Assembly (NCBI GenBank): GCA_018268055.1
Contig: JAFDXF010000057.1
Location: 1 to 64,000, forward strand
Length of the DNA: 64,000 nucleotides
Direction: 5' to 3'
Source: Bacteroidota bacterium
GTDB taxonomy: Bacteria; Bacteroidota; Bacteroidia; Chitinophagales; Chitinophagaceae
The notes below the pieces were generated by a model that saw only the letters and a program-made list of their open reading frames with translations, made no database searches and had not been told where the DNA came from. The position numbers and the translations under genes were made by a program. Of this stretch, positions 3,419 to 7,449 are shown in pieces (position 1 is the stretch's first letter; the number at the start of each line of letters is the position of its first letter).

Positions 3419-3426
3419 TATTTTTG
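3419..3426 (+). promoter_or_regulatory. Candidate -7 element (TATTTTTG) of the ATP-grasp/LysE operon
   Basis: TATTTTTG fits the Bacteroidota -7 consensus TAnnTTTG and lies 9 nt before the ATG at 3436. No well-spaced TTG -33 box is present (the nearest, 3401-3403, leaves 15 bp). A possible TTG start codon at 3424 falls inside this element, which argues for the ATG at 3436 as the real start. Confidence 0.45.
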
Positions 3427-3435
3427 TTACAATTG

Positions 3436-4479
3436 ATGAAGATTAAAAAAGCTTTTCAACGCATCTTTAAGTGGGAATTATGGAACTTCTATGTATTGTA
3501 TGCACCAATTTTTCCGGTATGGATATGGTATATAATACGTAGCAGAGCCGTATGGTATTTTACACCCTCCAATCCTACGATCACTTTTGGCGGTTTTCAT
3601 GGCGAAGGAAAGAAAGAAATGTACGATCAATTACCGACCCATTTAGTTCCCAAAACAATTTTCATCATGCATGATTTACCTTTTGATGAGGTAAAGAAAA
3701 AAATACTTGAAGCCGGCTTTACTTATCCTTTCATCGTAAAACCTGATGTGGGTATGAAAGGTATTTTATTCAGAAAAATTGATAATGAAGATCAATTTCA
3801 TAAATACCATGAGAAAGTTCCGGTTGAATATATCGTTCAGGAGTTGATAGAATTGCCTTATGAAGTGAGTGTATTTTATTATCGGTATCCGAATGAACAG
3901 AAAGGCGTTGTCAGCGGGTTTATTCATAAAGAATTATTGCAGGTAAAAGGCGATGGCGTATCTACATTAAAAGAATTGATAACCCAACATTCAAGAGCTA
4001 AATTTCGGATGGAAGAAATGGAACACCGGCATGGGCATCGGTTTGATAGAGTGATTCCCCAAGATGAAATATTTTATTTGTCTTATGCCGGCAATCATAA
4101 TCGCGGAGCACATTTTACCAACTTATATAAAGAAATAGATGAAAACTTGCTGAAAGTTTTTGATGAATTGAGCCATTTTAATGGAAAGTTTTTCTATGGT
4201 CGTTATGATATTAAGACGACTTCAATAGAAAATTTAAAGCAAGGTAAAAATTTTTATATATTGGAGTATAATGGCTGTGGTGCCGAGCCCAATCATATTT
4301 ACGATTGCGGTATGAGTCTTTGGAAAGCTTATGGTGTGATATTGCAACACTGGAAAGCCTTGTACAAAATAAGCCGATATAACAATAACAATGGAACGCC
4401 TTATTGGTCTTTTAATAAAGGCAGAAAGTTTTTGCGAGATGCTGAGAAGCATTTTCGCCTTTTAGAAAAATATGATTAG
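3436..4479 (+). CDS. ATP-grasp ligase, first copy of tandem pair
   Basis: A 347-residue ATP-grasp protein, distantly like D-Ala-D-Ala ligase. Visible features: an aromatic N-terminal segment (FKWELWNF) shared with the second copy, WYFTPSNPT, then PFIVKPDVGMKG with the ATP-binding Lys, GDGVSTLKEL, AGNHNRGAHF, and the metal-binding end of the fold in ILEYNGCGAEPNH. Family knowledge: ATP-grasp enzymes join a carboxylate to an amine or thiol through an acyl phosphate. The substrate is unknown. The start at 3436 matches the start of the paralogue at 5238. The next gene encodes a LysE-like exporter, suggesting that the product leaves the cell. Confidence 0.82.
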   Translation: MKIKKAFQRIFKWELWNFYVLYAPIFPVWIWYIIRSRAVWYFTPSNPTITFGGFHGEGKKEMYDQLPTHLVPKTIFIMHDLPFDEVKKKILEAGFTYPFIVKPDVGMKGILFRKIDNEDQFHKYHEKVPVEYIVQELIELPYEVSVFYYRYPNEQKGVVSGFIHKELLQVKGDGVSTLKELITQHSRAKFRMEEMEHRHGHRFDRVIPQDEIFYLSYAGNHNRGAHFTNLYKEIDENLLKVFDELSHFNGKFFYGRYDIKTTSIENLKQGKNFYILEYNGCGAEPNHIYDCGMSLWKAYGVILQHWKALYKISRYNNNNGTPYWSFNKGRKFLRDAEKHFRLLEKYD

Positions 4480-4519
4480 TTTTTTCGGAGCAAATTACTG
4501 ATGTTTGAAAATTGATTAA

Positions 4520-5230
4520 ATGCCACCTCTGTTACGAATATTTTTTACCGGTTTACTCATTAGTTTTCTTGGCTCATTGCCATTGGCAACAATGAATGTG
4601 GCAGCAATGCAAATTGCTGTATCGGATACTATCATAGCAGCTATGTTATTTTCTTTAGGTTCGCTATTGGTCGAAATGTTTTACGTACGTCTTTCATTGG
4701 TTGCATTGAGTTGGATAAGTCATCAACGAAAACTATTTCGTGTTTTAGAATATGTTACATTGATTATTGTATTGGCATTGGCCGTTGCTGAGTTTTATGC
4801 AGCTTCTCAACCATCCGAAGCAAAAAATATTGTACTAAGCAGTACGCTGCCCAAATTTATTTTAGGTGCATTGATGTGTGCATTAAGTCCGGGGCAAATT
4901 CCTTTTTGGCTGGGATGGAGCACCGTTTTATTTTCAAAAAAAATTTTGCAGCCCAAGAGCAGCTTTTATAATTTCTATATTTTAGGCATTGGCATTGGCA
5001 CATTTTTGGGGAATTGTATCTTTATTTTTGGAGGAATGTTGATTGCCAATACAATTAATACCAATCAAAAAATATTGCATTGGATAATCGGCGCAATATT
5101 TTTGGGCACAGCTTTATATCAAGCAGTGAAAATGATTATGAGAAAAGGACCGGCAACTTTAATAGCACCTGCGGGAGAAAGACTGATGCAAATGGAAACC
5201 TTACTGAAACGCATTAAAAAAGACTACTGA
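4520..5230 (+). CDS. LysE-family exporter, first copy
   Basis: A 236-residue integral membrane protein with about six hydrophobic segments, of the LysE/RhtB amino-acid exporter superfamily. The N-terminal segment reads ISFLGSLPLATMN, in the place where typical members have a G-P-G-P type turn, so it is a divergent branch. A second conserved stretch, LSPGQIPFWLGWST, is shared with the copy at 6284. The C-terminal tail (about 205-236) is basic and cytosolic. It lies between two ATP-grasp genes, 40 nt after one and 7 nt before the other. Confidence 0.78.
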   Translation: MPPLLRIFFTGLLISFLGSLPLATMNVAAMQIAVSDTIIAAMLFSLGSLLVEMFYVRLSLVALSWISHQRKLFRVLEYVTLIIVLALAVAEFYAASQPSEAKNIVLSSTLPKFILGALMCALSPGQIPFWLGWSTVLFSKKILQPKSSFYNFYILGIGIGTFLGNCIFIFGGMLIANTINTNQKILHWIIGAIFLGTALYQAVKMIMRKGPATLIAPAGERLMQMETLLKRIKKDY

Positions 5231-5237
5231 GGATAGC

Positions 5238-6287
5238 ATGAAATTTAATTTTAAAAATATATTTAATTGGGAACGGTGGTCTTATGACGTTATTTATCTT
5301 CCTATTGATATTTTCTGGCTTTGGTATGCAATCAAAGCAAGACATTTCTGGTATTTCACTCCCGTAAACCCCACTTTAATTTTTGCAGGCTTCGAAGGTG
5401 GAAGTAAAAAAGAAATGTATGAGCAATTGCCCAAATGGAGTTATCCTACAAGTATTTTTATTGAGCCTTCTGAAAGTATTGAGCAGGTAAAAAATAAAAT
5501 GAATGAAGCCGGACTTATTTTTCCTGTAGTGGTTAAACCTGATTCGGGAATGGCCGGAGTTTTGTTTCGTATTATTAAAGATGAGGCACATTTAAAAATA
5601 TATCATGAAGCGGTAGGAGAGTTATATGTGTTGCAAAAATGTATTGACACCGGATTGGAATACAGTGTATTTTACATTCGATTCCCTGGTGAAAAAAAGG
5701 GGTTTATTACTGGACTTATTGTAAAAGATTATTTGCATGTGATTGGGAATGGCAGACATTCTTTATCTGAATTGGTGAATGAGCATCCGGTTGCAAAATT
5801 CAAAGTACAACAGTTGAAAAAGATGCATGCTTCAAAATGGAATGAAATTATTCCTACAGGAACAAACTATTTATTGAATCCTGCGGGGAATCATAATACC
5901 GGCGCAAAGTTTGTAAACCTGAATCATGAAATAGACCAACAACTTTGCGATGTCTTTGATAAAATTTCAGATGAAGCAGGGCAATACTATTTCGGACGCT
6001 ATGATTTAAAATGCACTTCGTTGGGTGATTTAAAGAGTGGGAAAAATATCGACATCCTTGAGTTCAATGGCGCAGGTGCAGCAATTACACATGTGTTCGA
6101 CCGCAATATGAGTTATTTTTCAGCGCTGAAAGAAATTGTTCGCCATTGGCGATATTTATATAAAATCGGAAAAATAAATAATAAGAAAGGGGTAGCTTAT
6201 TGGGGTTTTTGGAAAGGGTATCAATTTATGCAAAAAGCAAAAAAGAATTTTAAAAGAATGTCTGCCATAGATAAAAGAATACCATGA
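5238..6287 (+). CDS. ATP-grasp ligase, second copy of tandem pair
   Basis: A 349-residue paralogue of the protein at 3436, alike along its whole length: FNWERWSY at the start, WYFTPVNPT, KKEMYEQLP, FPVVVKPDSGMAG with the ATP-binding Lys, AGNHNTGAKF, YYFGRYDLK and ILEFNGAGAAITH. Both copies keep the Lys and the E-x-N metal ligands, so both should be active. Differences near the end of the fold (GAGAAITH against GCGAEPNH in copy one) may reflect different substrates. Its stop overlaps the next start as ATGA, so this ligase and the following exporter are translationally coupled. Confidence 0.82.
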   Translation: MKFNFKNIFNWERWSYDVIYLPIDIFWLWYAIKARHFWYFTPVNPTLIFAGFEGGSKKEMYEQLPKWSYPTSIFIEPSESIEQVKNKMNEAGLIFPVVVKPDSGMAGVLFRIIKDEAHLKIYHEAVGELYVLQKCIDTGLEYSVFYIRFPGEKKGFITGLIVKDYLHVIGNGRHSLSELVNEHPVAKFKVQQLKKMHASKWNEIIPTGTNYLLNPAGNHNTGAKFVNLNHEIDQQLCDVFDKISDEAGQYYFGRYDLKCTSLGDLKSGKNIDILEFNGAGAAITHVFDRNMSYFSALKEIVRHWRYLYKIGKINNKKGVAYWGFWKGYQFMQKAKKNFKRMSAIDKRIP

Positions 6288-6922
6288 TTGAAGTTTTTTT
6301 CACTGCAATGATGATTAGCTTTTTAGGTCAGCTGCCTTTTGGCAATATGAACCTTACTGCTACTCAACTTGCCGTGCAGGAAGGCCTTGGCAATGCTTGG
6401 AAATATAGTATTGGTATTGTCATTGTAGAAGTAGTGTATCTACGTTTGGCACTTACAGCAATGGATTGGGTCGTTCAAAATCAAATGCTGTTTAAAATAA
6501 TGAGTTGGCTTACTGTAATTGTTTTTTTAGCATTGGGCGTATTGAGTATTTTTATTGCACGAAAACAAACTCAAGAAAAGAAAGGATTGTTGCTGAATAA
6601 TAAGATGGATAGGTTTCTGTTAGGTGTAAGTGTTTCAGCAATCAATCCGGTGCAAATACCTTTTTGGTTTATCTGGAGTACACAGCTTTTAAACAGTCAT
6701 ATTTTAAAAACTACGAATGCATATTTTAATATGTTCACCGGAGGCGCGGCAATAGGTTCGTTAGCAGGGTTAGCGGTTTATGTATATGGCGGTCGTTGGG
6801 TAATTCAAAAAATGAAAGCCAGTAATAAGCAGCTAAATATCTTTATGGGCATTGTATTTATCATTGCTGCTTTATGGCAGCTTTACAATATTTTATTTAA
6901 ACCCGGATTAATTAAAGCTTAA
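6284..6922 (+). CDS. LysE-family exporter, second copy
   Basis: A 212-residue membrane protein paralogous to the one at 4520. Shared pieces are ISFLGQLPFGNMN near the N-terminus, VEVVYLRLALTAMDW, and INPVQIPFWFIWST in the middle; about six membrane segments are visible. It lacks the basic C-terminal tail of the first copy. The ATG lies within the end of the ATP-grasp gene (4-nt overlap), the classic sign of coupled expression of partners. Confidence 0.78.
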   Translation: MIEVFFTAMMISFLGQLPFGNMNLTATQLAVQEGLGNAWKYSIGIVIVEVVYLRLALTAMDWVVQNQMLFKIMSWLTVIVFLALGVLSIFIARKQTQEKKGLLLNNKMDRFLLGVSVSAINPVQIPFWFIWSTQLLNSHILKTTNAYFNMFTGGAAIGSLAGLAVYVYGGRWVIQKMKASNKQLNIFMGIVFIIAALWQLYNILFKPGLIKA

Positions 6923-6954: not shown

Positions 6955-7449
6955 ATGGCAATCAAAGAAGCACTGATATCAGAATTAAAACGTGAGTCGG
7001 AATCGACTAAGAAAATGCTAGAGCGAGTTCCAATGGATAATAGCGATTGGAAGCCGCACGAAAAATCCATGTCTATTGGGAAATTAGCCACACATATTGC
7101 CGCCATCCCGCTTTGGATTTCTTCGATAATTAATATGGATGATTATGATATTGCAAAACATTACAAAAATGTCCATGCATCTACACAGGAAGAATTGATG
7201 AAATTGTTTCAGGATAGCTTAAATGACGCAATTGAAAATTTAGAAAAAATTGAGGATGCCGATTTGTTTAAAACATGGATCTTTAGAAATGGAGATCATA
7301 TAATTGCCAATGCGCCTAAAATAGGAGTGATGCGTTCATTATCGATGAGCCATTTAATACATCATAGAGGTCAGTTGTCTGTTTACTTGCGTCTATTAGA
7401 TGTGCCTGTGCCGGGTATGTATGGTCCAAGCGCCGATGATCAACATTAG
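6955..7449 (+). CDS. DinB-family metal-binding four-helix protein
   Basis: A 164-residue DinB/YfiT-like protein. The expected metal-ligand histidines are present: H47 in LATHIAAIP, then H133 and H137 in MSHLIHHRGQ. The family folds as a four-helix bundle and includes thiol transferases that use bacillithiol or similar thiols, though most members have no known substrate. It begins 32 nt after the second exporter gene and may share its transcript. Confidence 0.85.
   Translation: MAIKEALISELKRESESTKKMLERVPMDNSDWKPHEKSMSIGKLATHIAAIPLWISSIINMDDYDIAKHYKNVHASTQEELMKLFQDSLNDAIENLEKIEDADLFKTWIFRNGDHIIANAPKIGVMRSLSMSHLIHHRGQLSVYLRLLDVPVPGMYGPSADDQH

Follow-up and report, generated by a model that had tools for sequence, protein, structure and literature searches.

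Here we report that a 64,000-nucleotide stretch of DNA from a Chitinophagaceae bacterium (contig JAFDXF010000057.1 of assembly GCA_018268055.1; hereafter the window) encodes two ATP-grasp ligases, each followed by an exporter of the LysE family, and that this ligase–exporter unit is real, conserved and, as far as the literature searched shows, undescribed. The searches returned no paper on an ATP-grasp enzyme with LysE in Bacteroidetes and, among genes that lie beside the ligase in relatives, none on TANGO2 with ATP-grasp and no relevant one on a DoxX/YHS/DinB cluster; this agrees with the original prediction, made from the DNA letters, which knew of no such system. We tentatively favour a reading, somewhat short of probable, in which a membrane-associated amide ligase forms a probably amphiphilic amino-acid conjugate for export by the LysE protein paired with it.

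A conserved ligase–exporter unit

The four genes form a single run on the plus strand. LigA (3436..4479, 347 residues) begins with an ATG at 3436, an in-frame TTG lying also at 3424, and is followed by LysE-A (4520..5230, 236 residues); LigB (5238..6287, 349 residues) begins after a gap of 7 nucleotides from the LysE-A stop and overlaps LysE-B (6284..6922, 212 residues) by the sequence ATGA. These junctions are as originally described, and the alternation of two ATP-grasp with two LysE-like genes is borne out by the open reading frames, the ligase fold and the Pfam LysE scores. The members of each pair are indeed alike over their full length, LigA and LigB aligning gap-free over 345 residues at 46% identity (E 3e-116) and LysE-A and LysE-B over 208 residues at 35% (E 4e-50). 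Compared with near relatives, all four genes show a nonsynonymous divergence (pN) of 0.11-0.14 against a synonymous divergence (pS) of 0.69-0.83, with synonymous sites near or at saturation. Both pairs are under purifying selection and, given the low pN relative to pS in every gene, are therefore maintained as functional.

The adjacency of ligase and exporter is not due to chance, because the host genome (100% complete, 3.2 Mb) has only four LysE genes, two of which lie directly 3' of its only two ligase genes. The ligase is present in 97 of 195 sampled genomes of the same family, about half. Among 151 distinct ligases mapped (141 unfused and 10 fused to other domains), a LysE gene occurs within the same-strand run of 100 of the 141 unfused ones; the ligase is thus not usually encoded without an exporter, as the original prediction implied, nor was any cytosolic pathway found for it that would speak against the proposed module. 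LysE accompanies all 27 members of the LigB clade; it is found with 48 of 68 ligases of a LigA group, 22 of 34 of a LigC group (LigC being the second ligase of a longer cluster described below), 3 of 12 deep-branching ligases and none of the 10 fused proteins. Because the named loci were chosen by similarity to LigB, these counts are biased towards LysE pairing; among loci taken from the sampled genomes (L132-L180), about 23 of 48 unfused ligases have a LysE. The full ligase–exporter–ligase–exporter order recurs in six further genomes (L032-L037, of which two are truncated at a contig end), in some of which a CRP or YCEI gene lies inside the four-gene array.

Identity of the ligase and the exporter

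On profile and predicted-fold comparison, the ligase is nearest to the ATP-grasp domains of cyanophycin synthetase (CphA) and GshF. A profile built from 54 relatives matched CphA2 (E 5e-8), another CphA-type synthetase (2e-7), GshF (6.6e-5) and CphA1 (3e-4), in alignments that span the ATP-grasp core and the GDG-ST-LI region. The AlphaFold model of LigB (pLDDT 91.8) finds its best match in the CphA1 ATP-grasp domain (Z 17.9 over 274 residues), followed by GshF (Z 15.7), LysX, ArgX and RimK (about 14) and Ddl (about 13). In LigB numbering, the putative catalytic residues K100, R254, D256, E275 and N277, with roles as ATP and Mg ligands assigned to the Lys, Arg, Asp and Glu-x-Asn from the alignment and general knowledge of the ATP-grasp fold, are invariant in the 54 relatives and in both window copies, which sustains the claim that the two copies kept intact active sites.

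Enzymes of the CphA, GshF and RimK type convert a carboxylate to an acyl phosphate and then join it to an amine. CphA extends a chain with an amino acid in this way, and the same type of reaction may be expected of the ligase. However, CphA is a protein of about 580-910 residues with N and Mur-ligase-like domains and makes a polymer, whereas LigA and LigB are lone ATP-grasp units that carry an N-terminal aromatic helix and are encoded next to an exporter. The glutathione synthetase domain of GshF (GshAB), alike in its ATP-grasp fold, attaches an amino acid to the carboxylate of a dipeptide, but within a soluble bifunctional protein of 750 residues; the window ligases are without the glutamate-cysteine ligase half.

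Both LigA and LigB fall under the curated Pfam cut-off for ATP-grasp, which is a test of recognition and not a criterion of the fold. Since few of the 54 relatives match Pfam, and those weakly, Pfam-based searches would miss the family; one fused relative exceeds the RimK cut-off (29.4 bits against 21). Near the N terminus lies an uncharged aromatic stretch (LWNFYVLYAPIFPVWIWYII in LigA). The longest charge-free run has a median length of 20 in the N-terminal 65 residues compared with 13 in the rest of the protein, and is longer there in 132 of 149 proteins. In the LigB model this stretch coincides with a helix at residues 16-34, through which the ligase may associate with the membrane.

The exporters score 41.2 and 49.0 bits against the Pfam LysE model (PF01810; cut-off 25.6), which marks them as genuine yet divergent LysE proteins. 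As predicted, they are without the usual G-P-G-P turn: PGP occurs in the first 60 residues of none of 97 family exporters compared, and the site reads S/Q-L-P-L-G-x-L-N instead. A second motif, N-P-x-Q-I-P-F-W, lies in the second half of these proteins; E49 is near-invariant (98% of the 97) and N121-P122 is conserved in about 87%. The LysE-B model has a predicted arrangement of 3+3 helices, with likely breaks at P-F-G-N-M-N and N-P-V-Q-I-P-F-W, each in the first helix of its three-helix half. The Pfam score, the predicted helices, the N-P of helix 4 and the acidic E49 of helix 2 are thus points of likeness to LysE/RhtB, and the missing PGP turn, the missing helix-4 Asp and the two motifs of the family are points of difference.

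The substrate would probably also differ from that of the classical lysine exporter. LysE of Corynebacterium glutamicum requires an Asp in helix 2, an N-P in helix 4 and an Asp in helix 4 (PMC4608589). The family exporters keep the N-P, but their helix-2 acid is Glu instead of Asp and helix 4 carries VQIPFW with no conserved Asp, so that they are unlikely to be lysine exporters. Substrates across the LysE superfamily include amino acids (neutral ones among them), peptidoglycolipids and metals (PMC4608589). Sequence searches found no solved structural relative of the exporter, and a fold search gave no convincing match, its best Z being 8.9, a score to be expected among helical membrane proteins in general.

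Origin of the two pairs

In a quick ligase tree with SH-aLRT support only, LigA falls in a clade of 40 rows, a lineage common in Chitinophagaceae, and LigB in a separate clade of 25 rows shared with Segetibacter and Parafilimonas (support 99 each). In these two genera the LigB-type pair is the sole copy and stands at the locus that corresponds to the window's, beside the LutA-like gene. The exporter tree places LysE-A with the exporters 3' of LigC in a long cluster of ancestral type, and LysE-B in a separate clade with the exporters of most LigB genomes; most rows agree with the ligase clades and a few deviate, for example Segetibacter, L045 and L039/L041. Ligase and exporter are a conserved pairing in which each ligase keeps its own exporter lineage, as the trees show. 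The original prediction also held that a two-gene unit had been duplicated in place, and this part was not upheld: because the copies, each with an exporter of its own, fall into two different well-supported clades, a recent tandem duplication was rejected as the simplest reading. It had further counted copies from unrelated clades as evidence against a module; the clades are indeed different, but both belong to one ligase family.

Longer loci suggest how the first pair came about. In Lacibacter, Terrimonas and others the order is LigA–Crp–YHS–DoxX–(YceI)–DinB–TANGO2–LigC–LysE; such two-ligase clusters with a Crp regulator, YHS, DoxX, DinB and TANGO2 were read at L067 (7947-14372), L085 (7941-13908) and L105 (7959-14248). 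Many genomes have LigA–LysE alone, with a Crp or YceI gene at times remaining between the two, which fits a stepwise loss of genes from the long cluster. By its place in the exporter tree, LysE-A appears to be the exporter that formerly stood 3' of LigC. The second pair would be either a unit co-inherited from another lineage by horizontal transfer or an old paralogue kept with differential loss. In a tree of the LutA-like gene the LigB-only genomes form one group (support 86), next to Lacibacter, yet the Lacibacter LigA lies in the LigA clade; five tandem genomes that have the gene fall outside this group, scattered and with weak support.

Possible products of the unit

Distant relatives from families f24, f30, f42 and f45 carry the ligase as the C-terminal part of a hydrolase–VTT(DedA)–ligase protein of 818–905 residues (L122 4837-7305, L125 4920-7538, L128 4969-7533 and seven others), and the ten fused ligases form a single clade (support 100). 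The alpha/beta hydrolase region is clear in L125 and missed by Pfam in L122; the VTT domain is matched at 4.7e-16. Upstream genes in the ten loci read are an Acetyltransf_5 GNAT (10/10), PlsC (9/10) and DinB (8/10), and a coordinate comparison places a GNAT within 5 kb of the fusion in 30 of 30 fused genomes; at L125 an MlaE permease adjoins it. This GNAT and PlsC arrangement matches that of GlsB/GlsA and OlsB/OlsA, which make glycine, ornithine and flavolipin-type lipids, and by its gene content the fused ligase sits in an aminolipid-type operon. With LysE beside unfused ligases and VTT in fused ones, a membrane transporter is therefore the recurring partner of the family.

Based on these observations, we propose that the ligase binds ATP, converts a carboxylate to an acyl phosphate and would join it to the amine of an amino acid, as CphA and GshF do, while its uncharged aromatic helix probably attaches the enzyme to the inner membrane. 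Because the enzyme is probably membrane-docked, its carboxylate substrate would most likely be amphiphilic, such as an N-acyl amino acid or a fatty-acid-like lipid, a suggestion also consistent with the acyltransferase operons of the fused relatives. The paired LysE would move the product out of the cytoplasm, a role that the fused VTT/DedA domain may play in distant lineages. As the trees show, the window holds one unit of the lineage usual at the locus and one diverged, co-inherited unit. That the substrate is acylated, and that each pair has its own product, perhaps through different amino acids or acyl partners, is speculation.

A more specific proposal, which we consider unlikely but worth stating, is that the family includes the ligase by which N-acyl amino acid lipids are lengthened into dipeptide lipids, most clearly in the fused GNAT/PlsC operons, that LysE or VTT carries the finished aminolipid across the inner membrane, and that the window pairs produce two conjugates of this kind. 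Immune activity is known for the dipeptide aminolipids of Bacteroidota, and the amino-acid ligase that adds serine to glycine lipids to yield them is reported as unidentified (PMC12746155, PMC10191378). Chitinophaga, a possible carrier of the ligase, makes Gly-Ser and Gly-Ser-Orn lipids (PMC8433624). The ligase family is a candidate for this dipeptide-lipid ligase in some lineages only, and being widespread, mostly missed by Pfam and tied to transporters, it offers a concrete one.

Several findings weigh against an amphiphilic product. Acetyltransf_5 is absent from the host genome, which would thus be without N-acyl-glycine from GlsB as a precursor. This domain occurs in 20 of 195 same-family genomes, mostly as weak matches; in family f8 the ligase genomes and the clear GNAT genomes barely overlap; many GNAT-bearing genomes are without the ligase; and outside the fused lineage no GNAT was seen beside the ligase. 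The N-terminal helix of LigB contains two Asp, and none of the others looked at is less membrane-like. In one subclade the ligase is without LysE, and genes for a YqcI/YcgG family protein and for DUF1989 come next (L107 1094-3489, L110 7983-10320, L111 875-3202, L165 4423-7426), which suggests a possible small-molecule cluster with water-soluble chemistry. An obligate tie of the ligase to GlsB or OlsB was rejected for the host family, the GNAT being absent from the host genome and rare in the family. Direct acylation of histidine with fatty acids is reported for ATP-grasp enzymes of Legionella (PMC11631085), so a lipid product would be possible without a GNAT.

A serious rival, to which we give a substantial if lesser chance, is a small product that dissolves in water, either a dipeptide or an amino-acid conjugate, made by the ligase in the manner of ATP-grasp ligases from small-peptide natural-product pathways and exported by LysE as LysE-type proteins export amino acids. 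The fold is close to that of the amino-acid and peptide ligases CphA, GshF, RimK and Ddl, LysE/RhtB proteins are classically amino-acid exporters (PMC4608589), no OlsB-type acyltransferase is present in the host genome, and the YqcI/YcgG subclade resembles clusters in which HDO-type oxidases and ATP-grasp ligases yield peptides such as mangotoxin (PMC13185094). The mangotoxin cluster has two ATP-grasp ligases, MboC and MboD, but in another context, and the text searched makes no mention of a dedicated LysE pairing. A soluble product sits less easily with the fusion of the ligase to VTT/DedA in GNAT and PlsC operons, the uncharged aromatic helix kept across the family, and the lack of a conserved lysine-binding Asp in helix 4. 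Even so, a soluble peptide would still make this an uncharacterised unit of biosynthesis and export. The swap of LysE for VTT offers, in addition, a test made by nature of whether amphiphiles are carried by relatives of LysE.

The pair could instead be what is left of a module for redox, metal or heme stress, with the ligase making a ligand or modifying a cofactor. In family f5 (read as Flavobacteriaceae-like) and other Bacteroidia the ligase commonly ends a (Crp)–YHS–DoxX–DinB–TANGO2–ligase–LysE cluster, with DM13 in some between YHS and DoxX and a Crp-type regulator only at times; LysE relatives include metal exporters, and heme trafficking is reported for a bacterial homologue of TANGO2 (PMC10470608), although the structure of human TANGO2 argues for an Ntn hydrolase with nonspecific heme binding (PMC13044924). 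Yet the window and most Chitinophagaceae keep ligase and exporter without those genes alongside, and of these genes only DinB occurs in the fused lineage, which makes this explanation improbable in our view. That ligase and exporter are neighbours by inheritance only, with separate functions, might account for the roughly 25 of 48 unfused ligases of L132-L180 with no LysE in the downstream run, but we judge it very improbable: the window pairs fall in largely matching clades of the two trees, the pairing outlasted the loss of the intervening long-cluster genes, and elsewhere a transporter domain is fused to the ligase.

Two further genes lie near the unit. A DinB-family protein (6955..7449, plus strand) begins 32 nucleotides 3' of LysE-B and is a possible member; a DinB gene stands 3' of LysE in many Chitinophagaceae relatives. 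Two DinB subfamilies lie beside the ligases, one 3' of LysE, as in the window, and another 5' of TANGO2 or adjoining the fused ligase (L133 3800-4288), and the window protein belongs to a subfamily other than that of the long cluster. Upstream of the unit and outside it, a caspase-like Peptidase_C14 protein (Pfam E 1e-21) is encoded at 153-2012 on the plus strand.

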